41,925 bases of DNA from a virus: the IMG/VR virus record IMGVR_UViG_3300035523_000031, positions 1-41,925 of that record. One strand, 5' to 3'. The position numbers and the translations under genes are program-made. Below the pieces are notes generated by a model. The model saw only the letters and a list, made by a program, of their open reading frames with translations. It was not told where the DNA came from and ran no database searches. Each line of letters begins with the position of its first letter. Within the stretch, counting starts at the first letter, position 1. This document shows, one piece after another, positions 308-40,595 of this stretch.

Positions 308-1095
308 GGTTCCTTCCTCGACGGTTGGGGCTCCGTCACGCCAGGGGTGGCACAGCGGCATTCAGCAGCAACACACGCTTGCGCCACGTTGTCCCAGCCG
401 CACCAGCACTCAGCGCCGCGCTGACACAAGCCCTTTGCAGGCCGGCCGCACGGGATCGCTTTCGACGCCGGCACGCCAGAGCCACCGGGCAACGTGCCTT
501 TGCTCTGGCGTGCCACTTGTCGAATTTCCTGCTCGATCCGCTCTTTGCGTTCATCCAACGCCAGCACGCCAGCAACGGCTTTGCGCCAACCGCTCGCCGG
601 GTTCTGGAGCAGTTCGTTTGCGTAGAGCGTCGCTGCCTCGGTTTCCAGCTTCAGGCGGATCGTGCGCGGCGCCGGTTCGCGCACATCGCATTCGATGCAA
701 TCGCCGACTCGCGCGACGGACGGTGGCACGCCATTGGGGCAGTCGAACGCATGCGGTTCGCCCGGCGGGCAGCACGGCAGCGACGCCGGAGCGCCAAAGG
801 TGGGGCCGTTTGCATTCACTGGGCATTCACTGTTTGTCGGGCGGTGCCCGTTGTCGCAGACGCACGCGGGGGGCGCCAGCACGCTAGCGGTGCCGCGCGG
901 CACGTCAGCCCAGGCAATCACCGGCACCTCGACGCCGTGCACGTCGCGCCAGGCCTCGCCATCCCACGAGCCCATGAACACCGGCTCGCTGTAGTCGCTG
1001 GCCGGATCCAGCTCGATCATCACGGTGAGGTCGGCGTCCGGCAGGTCCGCGGGGTTGTCGGCGAGGATGTGCCAGGTGAGGGGTTCGGTGATCAT
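304..1095 (-). CDS. DUF551-like phage protein with Cys-rich C-terminal part
   Basis: This is a 263-residue protein. Residues 1-70 look like the DUF551 family, a small domain of unknown function common in phage early regions: a paired acidic strand, an EPVFMGSWDGEAWRD-type stretch and a closing W-x-D-V-P. The rest is unusual. It holds many cysteines (ACVCDNG, LPCCPPGE, DCIECD, CWCGW, CRC), suggesting one or more metal-binding sites, with a helical charged segment (about 165-205) between them. The ATG at 1095 overlaps the stop of the methyltransferase gene (ATGA), so it is co-translated in the leftward early operon. Function unknown. Confidence 0.7.
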   Translation of the reverse strand: MITEPLTWHILADNPADLPDADLTVMIELDPASDYSEPVFMGSWDGEAWRDVHGVEVPVIAWADVPRGTASVLAPPACVCDNGHRPTNSECPVNANGPTFGAPASLPCCPPGEPHAFDCPNGVPPSVARVGDCIECDVREPAPRTIRLKLETEAATLYANELLQNPASGWRKAVAGVLALDERKERIEQEIRQVARQSKGTLPGGSGVPASKAIPCGRPAKGLCQRGAECWCGWDNVAQACVAAECRCATPGVTEPQPSRKEP

Positions 1096-3623
1096 CAGGC
1101 GGCCTCTTTCAGCGGTACCGGTTCATCCAGGTCGAACAGCGTCGGCATGCTGACCTCGCGCTCGATCGCGCGCAGGTAGTGCACCTGGTCAGCGAAGTAC
1201 GCGGCGGACAGCTCCGACCCGCCGCCGCGCCGCCCGGCCTTGATCGCCCGCACCGGCACCGTGCCCAGCCCGCAGAACGGGTCATAAACCAGATCGCCCT
1301 TGTTGCTGTATCGCTCGATCAGGCGGTCGACGATGTCGAACTGCAGGGGGCAGACGTGCTTCTCGACGGCCCGGTTGCTCTGCTCGCCGTTGAGCGTGCG
1401 CATGCGGTTCACGTCGTGCCACACGTCGGCGCAGTGGCTGCCCGGCGCGAGGCTCATGAAGGTGGAAGGCAGCGCGCCGCGTGCGAGCAGATCCTCGCCG
1501 ATCTTCACGTGGTGCTCGAAGTCGTAGACCCGGCGCAGGCTGTCCTCGGTGAAGTACTTGGCCAGCTTGGCCGGGCCCATCTGCGCCATCTCCTCGGCGG
1601 TCAGCAGGCGGTTGCCGCTGGAGCGCCAGAAGGCGTGCGCGTCGACCTGCCAGCGCGCCAGGCTGTATTCGTCCTTGCGCTTGACCACCGGCTGATCGGC
1701 GTAGCCGCGCGTGCGGTCGCTCTGCGGCTTGTGGAACAGCAGGATGTATTCCGGCGAGCCGGCGCCCATCTTCGTGCCGTCCTTGCACATCTCGGTGTAG
1801 CCGAGCCGATAGGTCTGGTTGTTCTCCCGGACCACGTCGGTCACCACCGTGATCATCCCCATGTAGTCGAAGCCGTGCTTCAAGCCATGGAACAGCGCCT
1901 CGGCGTGGAACGGGCTCACCGTGGGCACGCCGGCCCCGGTGACGTTGCCGAAGTTGATCCGGTCCTTCACGTGGCAGCAGTACATGCGGCCAGGCTTCAG
2001 GATCCGCAGCAGCTCGGGCGTGAGGAAGTCCATCTGCTGCCAGAAGTGGCTGTTGTCCTGGGTGTGGCCGAAGTCGTTGTAGCTCGGCGTGTATTCGTAG
2101 TGGTTCGCGAACGGGATGGAGGTCACGATCAGGTCGACGCTGTTCTCCGGCTGCTCCATGGCTTCCAGGACGCAGTCGTTGTTCGCCACGGTGAAGTGCT
2201 CGCCGCTGACTACCTTGCGCTCGATGCCGATCGACCTGGCCAGCGTGTCCTGCATGGCAACGTGGCTCAGGCCGTAGGTGCGGATGATCTCGGCCATCTT
2301 CGCCTGCATCTCGTCGTGCCGAGCCCACTTCTCGCGCAGCGTCTTGAGGACCTCGCGCTCGGACTCGGTCTGCACGATGTCGATGCGCACCGGCCGCTCC
2401 TGGCCGAAGCGCTGCACGCGGTGGATCGACTGGATGAAGTCGTTGAACTTGAAGCTGACGCCGGCGAACACCTCGCGGTGGCAGTGCCTCTGGAAGTTGC
2501 ACCCGCTGCCGGCGATGATCGGCTTCGTCGACAGGATCCTGTGGCGGCCGTCGCTGAAGTCGACGATGCGCTGCTCGCGCTCCTCCAGGTCCTGGGTGCC
2601 CCACACGCTCACCGCCTCGGGCAGGGCCGCCTGCAGGGCATGCCGCTCGTCCTCGAGGTCGTGCCAGACGATGAAGTGGTCCTGCGGGTCGGCCTGCACG
2701 ATCGCCGCGGCTTTGGCGACCCGTGCCGGCATGCTGTTTCGCTTCTCGGTGGCGGCGGCCGACAGCCCCATCGCCACGTCCGGGATCAGCAGGCCCTGGC
2801 CATTCTTCTCGGCGCCGGCGGCGGCATAGTCGCTGGGCACCTCGTGATAGCGCACGTCCAACTCCGGCAGCACGTAACCCTCGTCGCTGTGGCCCAGGTC
2901 GCTGGGGCGCTGGATGAAAACCGCCCAGCTCGCCACCCACAGCCAGAACTCCTGTTCCTTGTGCGGGTACAGCGTGAGGTTGCCCGCCTTCTCGCTGTCA
3001 CGCTGGAAGAACCGCGTCAGGGCCTGCCCGGTGTCCATCACGCCCAGGTAGCCGGCATAGTGGATCAGCTCCTTGAACCGGTTCGGGCTCGGCGTGGCGG
3101 TGGCCACGAACTTGAACTCCACCGGCGCGAAGGCGGGCAGGAACTCCTGATAGGTCTTGCTGCCGTAGCTGCGCAGCACGCTCGCCTCGTCCAGGCTGGC
3201 GGCGCGGAACTTCGACGGGTCGAGCTTGCCCTCGCGCACGCTCTCGTAGTTGGTCATGTAGATCGTGCGCTCGTCGCCGATCTCGCTGTCCGAGCGGATG
3301 AAGCGCAGGTCGATCGCGAAGTCACCGTGGAACCGCTGTGCGGCCTCGCGGTAGAACTCCTGGCGCACGCCCAGCGGCAGGACCTGCAAGCGCAATCCGG
3401 GCCGGTGCACGCCGATCAGGCGCATCAGTTCCAGCTGCGTTGCCGTCTTGTGCAGTCCGAAGCTGGCGAAGATGGCGCGGTTGCCACCCTTGGCGGCCCA
3501 CTTCACGATATCGCGGGTGTGCGGCTTCAGGGCGGGGTTGATCTCCTCGAGCGGCACATCGAAGCCGTCGAAGTGCGCGAGCTTGATCTTGTCGCGCAGG
3601 AATTCTAGGTACTGCTGGCTCAC
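1095..3623 (-). CDS. SNF2-like helicase fused to an N4/N6 DNA methyltransferase
   Basis: The 842-residue fusion has two enzymatic halves. Residues 1-470 are a superfamily 2 ATPase of SNF2 type: nucleotide-binding FGLHKT (55-60), DEAS motif II (145-148), TATP motif III (175-178) and HRVQRFGQ motif VI (401-408). Residues 475-842 are an amino-methyltransferase with motif IV TSIPF (501-505) before the SAM-binding motif DPFCGLGT (781-788), the permuted order of beta-class enzymes. Motif I has His where GLGKT is usual, and motif IV has Ile for the first Pro; both may be typical of this phage family. The GTG at 3623 overlaps the cytosine methyltransferase stop (GTGA). It probably modifies phage DNA against host restriction, perhaps translocating along it. 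Confidence 0.88.
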   Translation of the reverse strand: MSQQYLEFLRDKIKLAHFDGFDVPLEEINPALKPHTRDIVKWAAKGGNRAIFASFGLHKTATQLELMRLIGVHRPGLRLQVLPLGVRQEFYREAAQRFHGDFAIDLRFIRSDSEIGDERTIYMTNYESVREGKLDPSKFRAASLDEASVLRSYGSKTYQEFLPAFAPVEFKFVATATPSPNRFKELIHYAGYLGVMDTGQALTRFFQRDSEKAGNLTLYPHKEQEFWLWVASWAVFIQRPSDLGHSDEGYVLPELDVRYHEVPSDYAAAGAEKNGQGLLIPDVAMGLSAAATEKRNSMPARVAKAAAIVQADPQDHFIVWHDLEDERHALQAALPEAVSVWGTQDLEEREQRIVDFSDGRHRILSTKPIIAGSGCNFQRHCHREVFAGVSFKFNDFIQSIHRVQRFGQERPVRIDIVQTESEREVLKTLREKWARHDEMQAKMAEIIRTYGLSHVAMQDTLARSIGIERKVVSGEHFTVANNDCVLEAMEQPENSVDLIVTSIPFANHYEYTPSYNDFGHTQDNSHFWQQMDFLTPELLRILKPGRMYCCHVKDRINFGNVTGAGVPTVSPFHAEALFHGLKHGFDYMGMITVVTDVVRENNQTYRLGYTEMCKDGTKMGAGSPEYILLFHKPQSDRTRGYADQPVVKRKDEYSLARWQVDAHAFWRSSGNRLLTAEEMAQMGPAKLAKYFTEDSLRRVYDFEHHVKIGEDLLARGALPSTFMSLAPGSHCADVWHDVNRMRTLNGEQSNRAVEKHVCPLQFDIVDRLIERYSNKGDLVYDPFCGLGTVPVRAIKAGRRGGGSELSAAYFADQVHYLRAIEREVSMPTLFDLDEPVPLKEAA

Positions 3624-4534
3624 GCGGTCTCCCTGATCTTGTTGATGACGTCTCTGGCCACCTTCGGACACACCGCATTGCCAAGCATGAAGTTCGCCTC
3701 GGGCACGCTGGCCGGCAGCAGGTAGTCCACTGGAAAGCCCATGAAGTCGCGGTTCTCCGGAATGCTGGTCATGCGCATGCGGTCGCCGTCCACCACGGCC
3801 CATCGCGCCTTCGTGGTGATCGTCCCGATCGGCCGGTCCAGGCTGCGACCGGTCAGGCCCGAGCCGCTGCCGTAATACGGCATCACGAACCGGTCACCGA
3901 AGCGCGCGCGGCCGGCTGCAATGCGCTGCAGGGTGGCCAGCGACCGGCCTGGCTTGTGGATTGGTGACCAGCCAGGAGCACCGAAGTCGATCACGCTGCT
4001 GGCCGGCACGTGCGCGCGGCGCGGCAGGCTCAACTCGAGCGGGTGCTTGCTGCGCGTCAGGACTAGGAACAGGCGTTCGCGGTGCTGCGGCACACCATGT
4101 TCCGCGGCGTCGATTAGGTGCGGCGCGATCGCATAGCCCAGCGCGTTCATAGCCGCGCACCACGCCGGGAACAGCGTCCAGCGGGCGAAGTCCGGCACGT
4201 TCTCGACCAGGGCGACGGCCGGCCGGTGGCACTCGGCAGCGGAGACGACGGCCCATGCCGTGCTGCGCATCGCGTCGTGGTGCGGCCGATCCTTGCCGCG
4301 CGCTCGGCTGTGGCCCTGGCAGGCCGGGGATGCCATCAGGAGGTCATGCGCCGGCACGGTGGTCCAGTCGCACTGATGCAGGTCCTGGCAGGCGTGCACG
4401 GTGCCCGGGTGATTGGCCGCGTGGATCTCGACAGCCGCGCGCCAGTGGTTCGCGGCCCACACGACCGTGCAGCCGGCCATAGCTGCGCCAGTTGTGAAGC
4501 CGCCGGCGCCCGCGAAGAGATCCACGGCCCGCAT
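3620..4534 (-). CDS. DNA (cytosine-5-)-methyltransferase
   Basis: The 304-residue protein has the ordered C5-methyltransferase motifs: SAM-binding DLFAGAGGFTTG (5-16), motif IV SPACQGHS with catalytic Cys72, ENV (111-113) of motif VI, QHRERLFLV (150-158) of motif VIII, then a short target-recognition region and a C-terminal GNAVCPKVA (motif X). The usual PPCQ reads PACQ here. No restriction endonuclease gene is adjacent, so it looks like an orphan phage methylase that protects phage DNA, working beside the helicase-methyltransferase encoded next. It is in the leftward early operon. The target site cannot be read from the sequence. Confidence 0.92.
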   Translation of the reverse strand: MRAVDLFAGAGGFTTGAAMAGCTVVWAANHWRAAVEIHAANHPGTVHACQDLHQCDWTTVPAHDLLMASPACQGHSRARGKDRPHHDAMRSTAWAVVSAAECHRPAVALVENVPDFARWTLFPAWCAAMNALGYAIAPHLIDAAEHGVPQHRERLFLVLTRSKHPLELSLPRRAHVPASSVIDFGAPGWSPIHKPGRSLATLQRIAAGRARFGDRFVMPYYGSGSGLTGRSLDRPIGTITTKARWAVVDGDRMRMTSIPENRDFMGFPVDYLLPASVPEANFMLGNAVCPKVARDVINKIRETA

Positions 4535-8525: not shown

Positions 8526-8902
8526 GCGAAGTCCGCCTGCATGTCCGCCCACTTCGCCCCAGCCTCGGCCAGCAGCTGCTGCGCGTCGCGCTGGCACCCG
8601 CGACCGTTCGCCGCGTTCACCAGCACCTGCATTGCCCGCTTGCCGAAGTCGCTGTACGTCAGCGCGTCTTCGATCAGCTCCCACACCAGCGGCGCCGGCT
8701 CACCGCGCCGCGCGAACAGGGCCCGCGCCGTCACGTCGCCGTGCTGCACAGCTCCGGCGAAGAGCTGGCGCAGCAGCGCCTCAGCAGCGACGCGCTCGCG
8801 CTCGTCGGCCTCCATGCGCGCCAGCACCTGCTGCGTGCTGTCGTTCGCGCGGCACGCGGCCCGGCGTTCCGGGTCCAGGGCTTGTTCGAGGATCGCGCTC
8901 AC
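8522..8902 (-). CDS. Helical early protein, unknown function
   Basis: The 126-residue, mostly helical protein (LEQALDPERRAACRANDST, ERERVAAEALLRQLFAGAV, PAPLVWELIEDALTY, AMQVLVNAANGR) has no recognised motif. The GTG at 8902 overlaps the preceding TGA (GTGA), the same coupling used across this operon. Function unknown. Confidence 0.62.
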   Translation of the reverse strand: MSAILEQALDPERRAACRANDSTQQVLARMEADERERVAAEALLRQLFAGAVQHGDVTARALFARRGEPAPLVWELIEDALTYSDFGKRAMQVLVNAANGRGCQRDAQQLLAEAGAKWADMQADFA

Positions 8903-9651
8903 GATGTCACCTCGACCGGTTTGCCCGCTTCGAGCGTGTACCAGACGTTCGCCTTGACACCGTCGCGCCCGGCGACGCCGGCCCACGCGGCAACGATCGT
9001 CCATTGGCTGTCACGTTCCACGAGGAACAGCGCGCAGCCTTCGGCGGCCATCGCGCGGCCATCGCGGCCGGACGCCATCGCGGCCCCGTGCTTGCCGGTG
9101 GCGCTCGCCGCGCCGCTGTACCCGGTGGCGCTCGCCGCGCCTCTGTCCCCGGTGGCGCTCGCCGCGCCTCTGTCCCCGGTGGCGCTCGCCGCGCCTCTGT
9201 CCCCGGTGGCGCTCGCCGCGCCTCTGTCCCCGGTGGCGCTCGCGTGGCCCTGCTCCGCATCGGACAGCGCTGGCGACTCCGGATCGATCGGTTTCGCGCG
9301 GCTGAACGTGTCTTCGACCGCGGCCTTGATCAGCCCGGCGAAGTCAATTTCGGCCTTGATGTGGATGCGAGAGCTCGCGACCTTCGTGTCGCCGTCGTGC
9401 CGCGCGATCTCGCCGGACTGCTCGACGATCGCGAAGCGCGAACCGGCCGGCGGGTAGTAGGCGAAGACGTCCAGCGGGTGCTCGCAGGCGTGGAAGCCGC
9501 CCTCGCACGCCTTGACTTCGCCCTTGTGCTCGTAGGTCTTGCCGAGTTCGAACTGGAACGGCACGCCGCCGCCGTGGCAGCACAGCTTCGAGTCGAAGCC
9601 CTTGTACGCCAGCACGACCTGAGCCGCTTGCTCCACCTGTCTCTTCGCCAT
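8899..9651 (-). CDS. First gene of left early operon, with nine-residue tandem repeats
   Basis: The 250-residue protein has three parts. Residues 1-125 form a compact domain (VLAYKGFDSKLCCHGGG, GGFHACEHPLDVFAYY) resembling a phage domain of unknown function in which the FHACE-x-PLDV motif recurs. Residues 130-185 consist of a nine-residue unit, GAASATGDR, repeated about five times, which may form a small beta-solenoid or a flexible spacer. The last 60 residues (ALFLVERDSQWTIVAAWAGVAGRDG) form another strand-rich domain. The ATG follows GGAGAGACAG, and the gene is first after the probable left promoter and operator. The role is unknown; being first expressed, it could counter host functions. 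Confidence 0.7.
   Translation of the reverse strand: MAKRQVEQAAQVVLAYKGFDSKLCCHGGGVPFQFELGKTYEHKGEVKACEGGFHACEHPLDVFAYYPPAGSRFAIVEQSGEIARHDGDTKVASSRIHIKAEIDFAGLIKAAVEDTFSRAKPIDPESPALSDAEQGHASATGDRGAASATGDRGAASATGDRGAASATGDRGAASATGYSGAASATGKHGAAMASGRDGRAMAAEGCALFLVERDSQWTIVAAWAGVAGRDGVKANVWYTLEAGKPVEVTS
9095..9256. repeat. 27-bp tandem repeat inside a coding sequence
   Basis: Six units start at 9095, 9122, 9149, 9176, 9203 and 9230. The four middle units are identical; the first differs at two positions and the last diverges after 14 bases. The unit length is a multiple of three, so gain or loss of copies keeps frame and changes only the number of nine-residue protein repeats. Short-read assembly may have mis-stated the copy number. 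Confidence 0.95.
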
Positions 9652-9685
9652 CTGTCTCTCCTGCCGCCCGGTTCGTGGGCGTGGA

Positions 9686-9740
9686 TATAATTGTGCACAA
9701 GGAAATCTAGTAATGCAAGAGAAACTTGCATGGAGCCGCC
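9686..9740. promoter_or_regulatory. Left early promoter region with operator palindrome
   Basis: A perfect 7-bp inverted repeat, ATGCAAG (9713-9719) and CTTGCAT (9725-9731) with five bases between, lies about 60-80 bp upstream of the leftward gene starting at 9651. It is part of a 35-bp block (9706-9740) that matches 11660-11694 at 31 of 35 positions. AT-rich TATAAT (9686-9691) and its complement lie beside it in a GC-rich background and may form the leftward -10 region, although a good -35 is not clear. I infer an operator for the XRE repressor. Confidence 0.6.
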
Positions 9741-9785
9741 CCAACAATCCGACGAACGGTAGTCAGCGGGGCAGTTCCGGGCGTG

Positions 9786-13391: not shown

Positions 13392-13588
13392 CTGAATCAC
13401 TGCAGGCGCTGGCGTCGCCTCGCCAACTCGCCGTGCGAGAGCACCGCACAACCTACGTGCTCGGCGTGCCGTGTCCGAAGGGCCACAACGGCCCGCGCTA
13501 CACCCTGAACGGCGCGTGCGTCGAATGCCAGCGCGCCTGGAGTCGCGAGGAGCGCGCCAGGATCCGCGCGCAGCGAGGTGCCGCGTGA
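13388..13588 (+). CDS. Small zinc-ribbon-like protein
   Basis: The 66-residue protein has a CPKGHNGPRYTLNGACVECQ motif: Cys and His near one another, then C-x2-C, which fits a single zinc site as in the N-terminal part of phage HNH or recombination-associated fingers. A basic helix (SREERARIRAQR) follows. ATGA overlap upstream and GTGA overlap downstream. It may bind DNA near the replication gene. Confidence 0.62.
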   Translation: MTESLQALASPRQLAVREHRTTYVLGVPCPKGHNGPRYTLNGACVECQRAWSREERARIRAQRGAA

Positions 13589-14586
13589 ATTATTACGAGC
13601 ACCACATCGGCGACTACGACAAGAACACCTCGCACCTCACGGCCTGCGAGGACGGGATCTACAGCCGCATGTTGCGGCGGTACTACGACACGGAGAAGCC
13701 GCTGCCGGCCGATCTCGACCGATTGTCCAGGCTGGTCCGAGCGCACACACGCGAGGAAAAAAAGGCAGTCGCTGCAGTAGCAGCCGAGTTTTTTTTCCAA
13801 GTCGGTGATGAACTGCATCAGAAAAAATGTGACGAGGTCATCGCAAACTTTCGAGCCACAGAACCCGAGCGCGAGGCCAAGAAGAAGAACGAGGACACCC
13901 GCCTCGCGCGCCATCGCGCCGAACGCGCAGAACTGTTTTTTGTCATTAACGGCGCGGGGTTACACATGCCATGGAACACGCCCATGGCCGAGTTGCGGGC
14001 CGCTGCGGAACGTATCAGGAGCGGCACGAGCGCACCTGCTGCAACGCCACCTGCAACGCCAAATCCTCGTTCACCTGCAACGCCACCTGCAACGGGAACT
14101 GCAACGCCTGCCACGGCTACCCATACACCAATCCCCACTCCCCATACACCACTCCCCAATGGTTTAAATACAGAAGGTACCTACGGTACCTCGTCCTCGC
14201 CTGCCGGCGACGACCCGGTCGACCTGGTCGGCGATGCCGTGCCACCGGCCCCCCCGCAGTGCCCGCACCTCGAGATCCTCGCCCTGTGGCGCGAGGTCCT
14301 CCCAGCCATGCCGCAGCACGACCCGAAGAAGTGGCACAAGACCCGCCGCGAGCACCTGCAGACGCGCTGGCGCGAGACCGCAGCAGAGAAAGGCTGGCGC
14401 TCGAAGGACCAGGGCCTCGCCTACTTCCGAAAGCTCTTCGCCTACGTCGGGCAAAGCCGCTTTCTCACCGGCCGCGTGCAGTCGCGCGACCCCAACAAAC
14501 CGTCGTTCGTGATCGAGCTCGAGTGGCTCATCCTGCCCAGCAACTGGGCCAAGGTGCACGAAGGCAAGTACCACGCGGAGGACTGA
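13585..14586 (+). CDS. DUF1376 replication initiator-like protein
   Basis: The 333-residue protein starts with the DUF1376 signature (NYYEHHIGDYDKNTSHLTACEDGIYSRMLRRYY), a winged-helix-like domain of phage replication proteins. Residues 145-200 are a Thr/Pro/Ala linker, and residues 230-330 a second domain (HLEILALWREVLPAMPQHD, WRSKDQGLAYFRKLFAYVGQS, LEWLILPSNWAKV) resembling helicase-loading C-terminal parts of initiators. The DNA coding for the linker holds regular repeats, as in lambda O. No DnaB- or DnaC-like gene is present, so host helicase is probably recruited. The start is a GTG overlapping the preceding stop. Confidence 0.8.
   Translation: MNYYEHHIGDYDKNTSHLTACEDGIYSRMLRRYYDTEKPLPADLDRLSRLVRAHTREEKKAVAAVAAEFFFQVGDELHQKKCDEVIANFRATEPEREAKKKNEDTRLARHRAERAELFFVINGAGLHMPWNTPMAELRAAAERIRSGTSAPAATPPATPNPRSPATPPATGTATPATATHTPIPTPHTPLPNGLNTEGTYGTSSSPAGDDPVDLVGDAVPPAPPQCPHLEILALWREVLPAMPQHDPKKWHKTRREHLQTRWRETAAEKGWRSKDQGLAYFRKLFAYVGQSRFLTGRVQSRDPNKPSFVIELEWLILPSNWAKVHEGKYHAED
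14036..14191. other. Putative replication origin (iterons, paired repeat, AT-rich patch)
   Basis: CTGCAACG occurs at 14039, 14051, 14075, 14087 and 14099, all on a 12-bp register with one position missing. Next come two near-identical 18-bp repeats starting at 14120 and 14141, then an AT-rich patch TGGTTTAAATACAG (14160-14173), then an inverted repeat of two GGTACC sites (14175-14191). This order of iterons plus AT-rich stretch inside an initiator gene matches lambda-type origins. No replication test supports it yet. Confidence 0.6.
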
Positions 14587-14589
14587 CCC

Positions 14590-15132
14590 ATGGCCACCCG
14601 ACCGAACTTCGACGAGAACGCCCACGGCTACCGCGGCGGCCGCGTCGACGACGACCCGATCTCCGACGATAAGCCCAAGCGCCTGCGCTACCCGTGCTTC
14701 GCCGGCGGCTGCCCGATGCCCGGCACGATCCTTCCGAGCGGCGGCAAGGACGGCGGCCCCGGGTCCTGCGCCTGGCACTACGGCACCAAGCCCAGCGACA
14801 TCCCGCGCGTGACACAGGTGCTGAAGGACTGGGCCTGCCTCACCTACGAGGTCAACGAAGCGCGCCGGGCGCTCACCGGCGACATCGCGGCCGATCCGAA
14901 GGCGCTGGCCGACGCCTTCACCGCCGCATGGGAGCGCCTGGAGCCACTCGTCGGCGACTGGGCCGAGCAGCTGCGCCCCGGCCCGATCCGCTCGCGCAAC
15001 CGCGCCACCGGCATCGTCAGCGACAGCCACATGCCAGAGGGCTATGCGGACTGGGCCAAGCGCCTCACCGAGTTCCTCGGTGCCCGCGTCGTCGAGGTGC
15101 TGTCGACGCACCGGGAAAGGAAGGCCGCATGA
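14590..15132 (+). CDS. Early protein with Cys/His cluster, unknown function
   Basis: The 180-residue protein has an N-terminal possible zinc site (YPCFAGGCPMPG, then GSCAWHYG) followed by a mostly helical domain (VTQVLKDWACLTYEVNEARRAL, ALADAFTAAWERLEPLVGDW). It follows the replication gene by 3 bp, so a replication or recombination role is likely, but I do not recognise the family. Confidence 0.6.
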   Translation: MATRPNFDENAHGYRGGRVDDDPISDDKPKRLRYPCFAGGCPMPGTILPSGGKDGGPGSCAWHYGTKPSDIPRVTQVLKDWACLTYEVNEARRALTGDIAADPKALADAFTAAWERLEPLVGDWAEQLRPGPIRSRNRATGIVSDSHMPEGYADWAKRLTEFLGARVVEVLSTHRERKAA

Positions 15133-40263: not shown

Positions 40264-40595
40264 GGTCTCGCCGCGCGGCGTAGCTTCCGGCGTAACTTCT
40301 CCATCACTGGTGAGTTTTCCCCAATGAGCGCCGCTGGACCATCATGGGTGTAACGGGCGGCTTCGGCTTCTCCGCAAGTCGTTGATTCTTCGACGTGTCA
40401 GGCTGCAACTGCTTGATTCCTCTACGTTTTCTGCCAATCGACGCTCAACCGTTCCAACCCGACAACGCTTGCCTAAACACGGCTACACTTGCCGCCGCAG
40501 CGTAGCTTTTCCGTCCCACCGAGAAAAAGTGACGCCGGCCGAACCGAAAAGTTACGCCGGAGCCCCGAAAAAGCTACGCCTGCTCAGGAGTAGCC
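40264..40595. other. attP: Attachment-site region with six integrase arm-type repeats
   Basis: This is the only gap over 300 bp. A motif close to GAAAAGYTACGCCGG occurs three times in one direction (40523-40538, 40544-40560, 40565-40580) and three times inverted (40276-40287, 40288-40299 in tandem, 40497-40513). A second pair, TTGATTCTTCGACGT (40382-40396) and TTGATTCCTCTACGT (40413-40427), lies 31 bp apart in the middle. Repeats flanking a central core next to the integrase gene is the plan of an attP. The core itself cannot be named without the host attB. Confidence 0.7.

Follow-up and report, generated by a model that had tools for sequence, protein, structure and literature searches.

The window, by which we mean the whole stretch of DNA that was analysed (virus record IMGVR_UViG_3300035523_000031, complete at 41925 bases), carries a DUF1376 (YdaU-like) gene whose linker region contains a regular array of short DNA repeats. 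The gene, its protein domains, the DNA elements within it and the gene that follows are as listed here.

13585..14586, plus strand: DUF1376 (YdaU-like) replication initiator gene, GTG start, 333 amino acids (Pfam, PHROGs)
13588..13842, plus strand: DUF1376 domain, aa 2-86 (Pfam E 2.4e-27; AlphaFold2 model of aa 1-145)
13843..14028, plus strand: extension, aa 87-148, a long helix in the model, which sorts with the repeat type among relatives
14011..14018, minus strand: inverted iteron-like CGTATCAG
14039..14046, plus strand: iteron 1, CTGCAACG
14051..14058, plus strand: iteron 2, CTGCAACG
14075..14082, plus strand: iteron 3, CTGCAACG (the slot at 14063 is empty)
14087..14094, plus strand: iteron 4, CTGCAACG
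14099..14106, plus strand: iteron 5, CTGCAACG
14108..14115, plus strand: degenerate iteron 6, CTGCCACG, 9 bp past iteron 5
14118..14159, plus strand: six tandem heptamers with CCA every 7 bp, G-poor and A/C-rich on this strand; candidate unwinding element
14160..14173, plus strand: AT-rich patch, TGGTTTAAATACAG
14176..14190, no strand assigned: GGTACC pair, not conserved
14260..14583, plus strand: C-terminal domain, aa 226-333, common to initiators without DUF1376
14590..15132, plus strand: gene in the position of lambda P, without a family in Pfam or PHROGs; homologues at 10 other loci from 7 contigs, mostly alongside the same type of initiator C-terminal domain

The first-pass annotation had placed a DUF1376 replication gene here, and the family searches agree. 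The window protein scores 95.5 bits against the DUF1376/YdaU family (PF07120), for which the Pfam gathering cut-off is 30.1. Most of its strong PHROG matches are named primosomal or replication protein, some are named unknown, and its C-terminal half matches phrog_345, 'replication initiation O-like' (PHROGs). A Pfam scan at E values up to 1 returned only DUF1376 and a sub-threshold match to Peptidase_M15_2.

Among the genes around the initiator, one on the opposite strand is repressor-like, with helix-turn-helix matches below the Pfam cut-off and a PHROG match to transcriptional repressors. Further genes around the initiator encode YdaS/Cro-like and DUF4406 proteins and the small and large terminase, and an integrase gene is located at the far end. 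Taken together, these genes indicate a lambdoid temperate layout. Cumulative GC skew, a check proposed with the first-pass annotation, does turn near 13.5 kb. However, the direction of transcription switches just upstream, so the turn is confounded with it and gives no independent support for an origin.

Other repeats and genes of the window were noted in passing. A 27-bp tandem repeat (9095-9243; 5.5 copies, 98% matches) lies inside the minus-strand ORF 8899-9747. It encodes a 9-residue unit rich in Ala, Ser, Thr and Gly, and is a whole-codon repeat, unlike the heptamers. Short repeats that have GTTACGCC in common, in opposite orientations, are found at 40276-40299 and 40523-40580, just 5' of the integrase gene (40596), and are possibly arm-type integrase sites or part of an att region. 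On the minus strand, 1095-3803 encodes a 902-residue protein in which Pfam recognises only a DNA methylase domain (N6_N4_Mtase, aa 556-870), leaving the first 550 residues without assignment.

The copies of CTGCAACG at 14039, 14051, 14075, 14087 and 14099 are the only exact ones in the window. The first-pass annotation had described five copies in a strict 12-bp register with one empty slot, and both the positions and the uniqueness of the grid bear this out: nowhere else in the 41925 bases do at least four exact copies of one 8-mer fall on a 12-bp grid. The bare count of five is unremarkable, as whole-window shuffles contain 3.03 copies on average and 18 of 100 reach five. When codons 89 onwards of the gene were shuffled synonymously 100 times, no 8-mer reached more than 3 copies. 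The repeat array is real and not a product of chance.

All window iterons lie in one codon phase, 12 bp being four codons, and protein repeats could therefore explain the copies in this gene, codon choice aside. Within the iteron segment, GCA accounts for 6 of 9 Ala codons; in the other window ORFs, which were picked by a GC3 rule, it makes up 7.4% (98/1325). The codon score of the segment (z -10.4 over 30 codons) likewise reflects rare codons. Elsewhere in the gene, the score is z -6.6 for aa 1-86 and z -0.2 for the C-terminal domain. The argument from rare codons is weakened because aa 1-86 deviate too, as expected in a mosaic gene, which this gene looks like.

Downstream of the iterons, 14118-14159 is the sole run in the window of at least four such CCA heptamer units. 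The 'doubled 18-bp motif' of the first-pass annotation is real (CCCATACACCA.TCCCC, at 14120 and 14141), but is a slice of the six tandem 7-mers. The AT-rich patch reported there is present as well, in a 40-bp stretch from 14145 that ranks at the 99.9th percentile of instability in the window. It is not unique, however: a stretch at 13789 is equally unstable, and 20-nt windows at 13929-13931 are more AT-rich. The GGTACC pair exists too, at 14176 and 14185, but is private to this phage. Among 64 genes, only the window gene has GGTACC within 120 nt past the last iteron, and the pair was dropped as a likely origin component.

An HMM search found 262 DUF1376 ORFs, of which 256 are complete and at least 550 nt long, and 101 remained after removal of near-copies. 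Nearer relatives are over-represented in this set, since the window protein or its alignment served as the query that found many of the loci. Genes were assigned to class A if they have two or more CTGNNACG of five common kinds and no TGCGAACG (47 genes), and to class B if they have TGCGAACG and no CTGNNACG (31 genes). The 23 genes in neither class comprise 14 without both words, 8 with a single CTGNNACG, and L152, which has one CTGNNACG beside two TGCGAACG and is the only gene of the 101 with both types.

The repeat words are concentrated in the linkers. With patterns and linker limits that were picked after inspecting the data, CTGNNACG on either strand has a density of 12.5 per kb in linkers (nt 380-570; 239 sites), compared with 0.99 per kb in the remainder of the same genes (74 sites), and TGCGAACG, again on either strand, is found 63 times in 30.9 kb of linker (nt 264-570) and never in the 62.8 kb outside. 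Steps between forward copies of CTGNNACG are mainly 12 bp (70 cases), 9 bp (45, the step that leads to iteron 6 in the window), 24 bp (15), 34 bp (7) and 11 bp (6). The 27 forward steps of TGCGAACG include 23 that are close to whole numbers of DNA turns (11-12, 22-23, 33-35 or 45 bp); the others are 68 bp or longer. The inverted element of the window also has counterparts, in that CGTNNCAG occurs at nt 395-450 in 12 of the 47 class-A genes. A subgroup of loci (L153, L137, L034, L005 and similar) has GTCACGC instead of CTGCAACG; it occurs in both orientations, frequently forming the palindrome GTCACGCGTGAC.

The two middle bases (NN) of CTGNNACG vary in a patterned way. In 29 of 47 class-A genes, the two copies nearest the heptamers both have CA at these positions. 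Copies further upstream often have a pair that is characteristic of the gene (AA, TA, AT or TC), so that Glu, Val or Asp replaces Ala in the protein. Within genes, 0.47 of the pairs are identical, compared with 0.384 after shuffling (maximum 0.462 of 2000 shuffles). This concerted change is real but modest, and is explained in part by the tendency of heptamer-proximal copies to CA in every gene.

The words are not tied to a reading frame. Forward copies of TGCGAACG fall in codon phases 2, 1 and 0 in 28, 26 and 3 cases, and more than one phase is used in 16 of the 18 genes with two or more copies. The words translate as ...ERNAN... or ...NANAMRTH..., and CTGCAACG as ...PATPAT.... The heptamers behave in the same way: since 7 is not a multiple of 3, CCAGACA falls in differing codon phases (more than one in 41 of 44 genes), and the 7-bp units are read in all three frames.

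In the relatives, the 60 nt past the last repeat are low in G and high in A and C (78 genes). Lag-7 identity in 64 genes is 0.505, compared with 0.361 +- 0.006 in gene-wide and 0.439 +- 0.005 in local synonymous shuffles, with more peaks at 14 and 21; this analysis was aligned on the chosen repeat words and so depends on them. Averaged over 63 genes, nearest-neighbour energies give the lowest duplex stability at the heptamer stretch among the sampled offsets (z +2.2 at offset 20).

Synonymous shuffles, which hold the protein and the codon pool fixed, gave tests that are independent of the chosen words. The copy number of the commonest 8-mer is reached by at most 1 of 100 shuffles (p <= 0.02) in 24 of the 101 DUF1376 genes; as a control, 334 other ORFs from these loci include 6 with a count that none of 50 shuffles reached. 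In two of the 24 genes (L036 and L067) the word is scattered across the gene, and these were rejected as linker repeats. At least four copies of the commonest 8-mer are present in 29 of 101 DUF1376 genes versus 8 of 334 other ORFs. A clustered statistic exceeds all 19 synonymous shuffles in 44 of the 101 genes, the other 57 not passing, and in 2 of 150 control ORFs sampled from the 334.

More distant genes give a mixed result. In a whole-gene 9-mer test, lambda O (5 copies versus a null maximum of 4) and Gifsy-2 O (7 versus 6) exceed the null; the Rac K-12 and 673R7 genes do not, nor do any of 9 distant phage DUF1376 genes, among which Bordetella IFTN2 equals the maximum. With the clustered statistic, which was adopted after the 9-mer result was known, 60 shuffles gave p 0.016 for each of the positive controls, lambda O and Gifsy-2 O, and p 0.049 for Rac YdaU, and the 673R7 initiator missed at p 0.082. 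Ten distant phage DUF1376 genes (PfDIW6 is also among the 101) divide into 3 that pass the clustered test at p <= 0.05 and 7 that fail. For this reason, the design is claimed for relatives of the window gene and, with weaker numbers, for the Rac type, and not for every DUF1376 gene.

The same words in several frames, together with the exceeded synonymous nulls, indicate that DNA and not protein is kept. The first-pass annotation had suggested selection on the DNA of the linker rather than on its residues, and the relatives agree, as they keep the DNA words and vary residues and reading frame. It had also counted against an origin any relatives that keep Thr, Pro and Ala through other codons without the register; this was looked for, and is not what the relatives show. 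Judged by these comparisons, the linker DNA is the selected object. In this gene set, a DNA signal has shaped the protein sequence in all three frames.

Repeat type sorts with the protein segment that follows DUF1376 (aa 87-122) and not with DUF1376 itself. Mean identity over aa 1-86 is about equal within and between classes (A-A 0.631, B-B 0.694, A-B 0.640), and over aa 87-122 it is 0.626 for A-A, 0.500 for B-B and 0.109 for A-B. Clustering of aa 87-116 gave a group of 57 genes with 230 CTGNNACG of the five kinds and no TGCGAACG, a group of 35 with 63 TGCGAACG and 2 CTGATACG, a Rac-type group of 5 with 8 TGTTCAAA and 2 CTGCAACG, a group of 2 without any word, and two singletons. Eleven A-B pairs, picked with the tree in view, have identities of 0.63-0.86 over aa 1-86 and 0.07-0.37 over aa 87-116. 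On a DUF1376-domain tree built from few columns, with 25 of 74 inner branches left open, class changes 15 times; with shuffled labels the number is 24.7, and none of 500 shuffles gave so low a value. This history suggests repeated switching with some inheritance.

Given this association, the repeats may be read by the segment that follows DUF1376. In class B, however, the first repeats can lie as far forward as about nt 296, which makes part of aa 87-116 repeat-encoded, and DNA neighbours travel together anyway, so the association is no proof of recognition.

The C-terminal side was examined in the family of the window's C-terminal domain. Seven loci with a complete N-terminal half that is not of the DUF1376 kind (L017, L028, L264, L268, L270, L271 and L272) have 0 to 2 scattered CTGNNACG and no array. 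Among members with DUF1376, an array is present in L003 and L267, two TGCGAACG in L269, and only single sites in L265; the count omits L018, L026, L033 and L266, whose upstream parts are missing. As judged from these genes, the repeats go with the N-terminal side of the initiators. Five loci with another N-terminal domain (L017, L028, L264, L268 and L272) have a Gln-Glu repeat linker (EQEQEQ), encoded in most of these loci by CAGGAG repeats, possibly a different origin or melting tract.

The AlphaFold2 model of aa 1-145 (mean pLDDT 91.5, pTM 0.64) contains helices, short strands at residues 71-73 and 76-78, and a long helix at 80-123, and suggests that the DUF1376 domain is winged-helix-like. 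A Foldseek search of the model against the PDB gave no match at E <= 0.001, which does not imply a new fold. VIA-align comparison with solved structures gave weak matches with a best Z of 6.5, many of them winged helices and ORC2 among them. According to their titles, the matches 4pql (Z 5.3) and 4pt7 (Z 5.0) are a DNA-binding protein's N-terminal domain and an initiator; we take both to be RepA_N structures. Of the viral models, 23 match at E <= 0.001, and the named ones are mostly DUF1376 or Lin1244-like proteins. Sequence matches to solved structures (E 0.48 and E 0.042) are to proteins without evident link and were discarded, and a model of the C-terminal domain was set aside (mean pLDDT 68.3).

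The product of 14590-15132 is a candidate helicase loader or primosome partner, for which no family was matched in Pfam or PHROGs. Its homologues accompany an initiator with the window-type C-terminal domain at L022, L003, L018, L037/L268 and L004/L267, and by eye such a domain is lacking at L032, L035 and L143. The product carries a CPMPGTI...CAWH segment. In other systems, DnaC-like or loader genes neighbour the Rac-type, Gifsy-2, PfDIW6 and AH02 genes, and a replicative helicase gene is the neighbour in ctTUS972 and a Leptolyngbya phage. A Walker A motif occurs in 13 of 92 longest downstream ORFs, a crude pick that is often wrong in GC-rich DNA, the window included.

Readings of the linker other than an origin were weighed. 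It might be a low-complexity Thr/Pro/Ala protein repeat that arose by slippage, with the DNA periodicity as its shadow. The single codon phase of the five window copies and the low complexity of the segment fit this reading, but it is contradicted by frame changes of the same DNA words among relatives (in the 16 of 18 and 41 of 44 genes above) and their presence on both strands, by steps such as 11, 22-23 and 34-35 bp that are mostly not multiples of a codon, and by the synonymous nulls, and we regard it as scarcely credible. Another gene in a different frame could hold the DNA fixed, and in the window a 233-codon ORF does overlap in another frame. Yet among the 47 class-A genes each of the other two forward frames is open across the linker in only 8 and the most open reverse frame in 28, whereas in a control stretch of the same genes the most open other frame is open in 35 of 46. 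These counts contradict an overlapping gene and leave it a negligible chance.

Module exchange offers a further explanation, in which the linker is a patch of homology for swapping modules among phage genes and has no binding role. Exchanges do occur at the edges of the linker. However, the words differ by class and segregate with the adjoining protein segment (L152 alone of the 101 genes has both types), so the repeats are not one common homology; nor does such a patch account for the heptamers and the low stability. We consider it very improbable. The repeats might instead be an operator array, with no origin present, at which the DUF1376 protein, or some other regulator of the phage, would repress or adjust its own operon. 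The binding logic would be the same, an array within a coding region can serve as a roadblock, and inverted copies of the repeat exist. Against an operator, the array starts approximately 430-450 nt into the gene and not at its start, the coupled, strand-asymmetric heptamer stretch of least stability would be needless, and the matched PHROG families are mostly named primosomal or replication proteins. This reading is improbable.

The most likely reading of the sequence comparisons is a lambda-ori-like origin within a different kind of initiator gene. We consider it highly probable that 14011-14173 is a phage replication origin located inside the initiator gene, which would be bound, as in lambda, by the protein that the gene encodes, with the C-terminal domain recruiting helicase. 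A mechanism can be proposed from the analogy with lambda O and pSK41 rep. The protein of 13585-14586 would bind the CTGCAACG iterons by its N-terminal half, composed of the winged-helix-like DUF1376 domain and the basic extension. Several initiator molecules would then wrap the iteron array, and the heptamer and AT-rich stretch, which is among the easiest-melting parts of the gene, would open. The C-terminal domain would recruit the helicase, either via a loader or directly.

A more tentative proposal, and one that we hold to be rather doubtful, is that the basic extension, its cognate iterons and the heptamer tract form an 'origin cassette' that is swapped as a block. Initiators would keep DUF1376 on one side of the cassette and change the C-terminal partner domain on the other. 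The extension, and not the winged helix, would read the iteron, and DUF1376 would give assembly or general DNA contact. If so, the CTGNNACG, TGCGAACG and TGTTCAAA classes would be first entries of a protein-to-iteron code for the DUF1376 family.

Pfam names DUF1376 as a domain of unknown function, and it is widespread in viral contigs, with at least 591 matching stretches in one scan, in many phages and prophages. In the literature passages retrieved, DUF1376 appears as such a domain or as a gene that is listed, expressed or mutated, and not as an origin; an earlier proposal of an origin may exist in the YdaU literature, in subscription journals or in preprints. If the proposed origin is correct, DUF1376 genes would point to the origins of many uncultured temperate phages by sequence alone, and the family would gain a function. 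The genes would also provide a natural paired set of initiators and iterons, in two or more classes, from which recognition rules might be derived.

The YdaU protein of the Rac prophage in E. coli K-12 is likewise encoded by a DUF1376 gene with repeats in the linker, although the repeat word differs from that of the window gene. The K-12 gene (NC_000913 1421119-1421976) has repeats around TGTTCAAACA, both direct and inverted, and exact TGTTCAAA on either strand at gene nt 393, 426 and 451. Prophage Rac-SA53 matches K-12 ydaU over nt 1-507 at 96% and then has a different C-terminal part, and it retains 2 of the 3 exact TGTTCAAA copies. Phages 673R7 and Rac 442/2 match only from nt 485 or 497 to 858, at approximately 87%, and have a different N-terminal domain and a different word, AGCGTTAC, of which 3 of 4 copies are at nt 368, 379 and 402, just 5' of the part common with K-12 ydaU. 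These natural hybrids exchange repeats together with the N-terminal half. An origin named oriJ, active but under repression as a rule, has been reported for Rac (PMC3945230), and the literature passages retrieved give no map position for oriJ relative to ydaU.

In Pseudomonas phage MD8, repeats lie inside the gene of an O-like protein, gp56, as they lie in the window gene, and the authors infer a lambda-like mechanism (PMC8508860); the word DUF1376 does not appear in that paper, and its section 2.6, on this gene, contains no test of reading frames. A resemblance also exists to the RepA_N initiator of plasmid pSK41, whose N-terminal winged-helix domain recognises four Rep boxes located centrally in its own gene, while the linker is encoded by the origin and a separate C-terminal domain contacts partners (PMC5703833). 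The window gene has a comparable layout, with mid-gene repeats, a linker that would be encoded by the origin and a separate C-terminal domain, and its N-terminal half may be winged-helix-like, as the model suggests. However, RepA_N proteins are initiators of Gram-positive plasmids, the window protein has no match to RepA_N (pfam06970) at Pfam E values up to 1, and structural matches with Z < 8 may reflect just the common winged-helix arrangement.

Lambda ori inside gene O was the model named by the first-pass annotation, and phi80 and P22 likewise have their origin inside an O-type gene. The window gene differs from lambda O in its N-terminal domain, which is DUF1376 and not Phage_rep_O (PF04492, which we take to be the N-terminal domain of lambda O), and a Pfam scan of the window protein at E up to 1 gave no match to Phage_rep_O. 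Lambda iterons are 18 bp long at intervals of 20-24 bp, whereas the words here are 8 bp at steps of 12 and 9 bp or approximately 11 bp. The melting tract of lambda is a plain A-rich tract, in contrast to the heptamer array, and where lambda has a P-type loader, the window has 14590-15132, a gene of no recognised family. Lambda O is reported to act on the iterons, with an AT-rich tract needed for unwinding (PMC7466680), and its N-terminal half to bind DNA while the C-terminal half serves for partners (PMC7466680, PMC8508860). The arrangement of the window gene is nevertheless that of lambda, with an initiator domain, iterons, an easily melted strand-asymmetric stretch and a C-terminal domain combined in one gene. 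In both genes, a DNA-binding N-terminal half, which is a prediction for the window protein, is followed by iterons in the middle of the gene (nt 349-433 of 900 in lambda O, and nt 455-531 of 1002 in the window), then by the melting stretch, and finally by a C-terminal half that contacts partners in lambda and is predicted to do so here.
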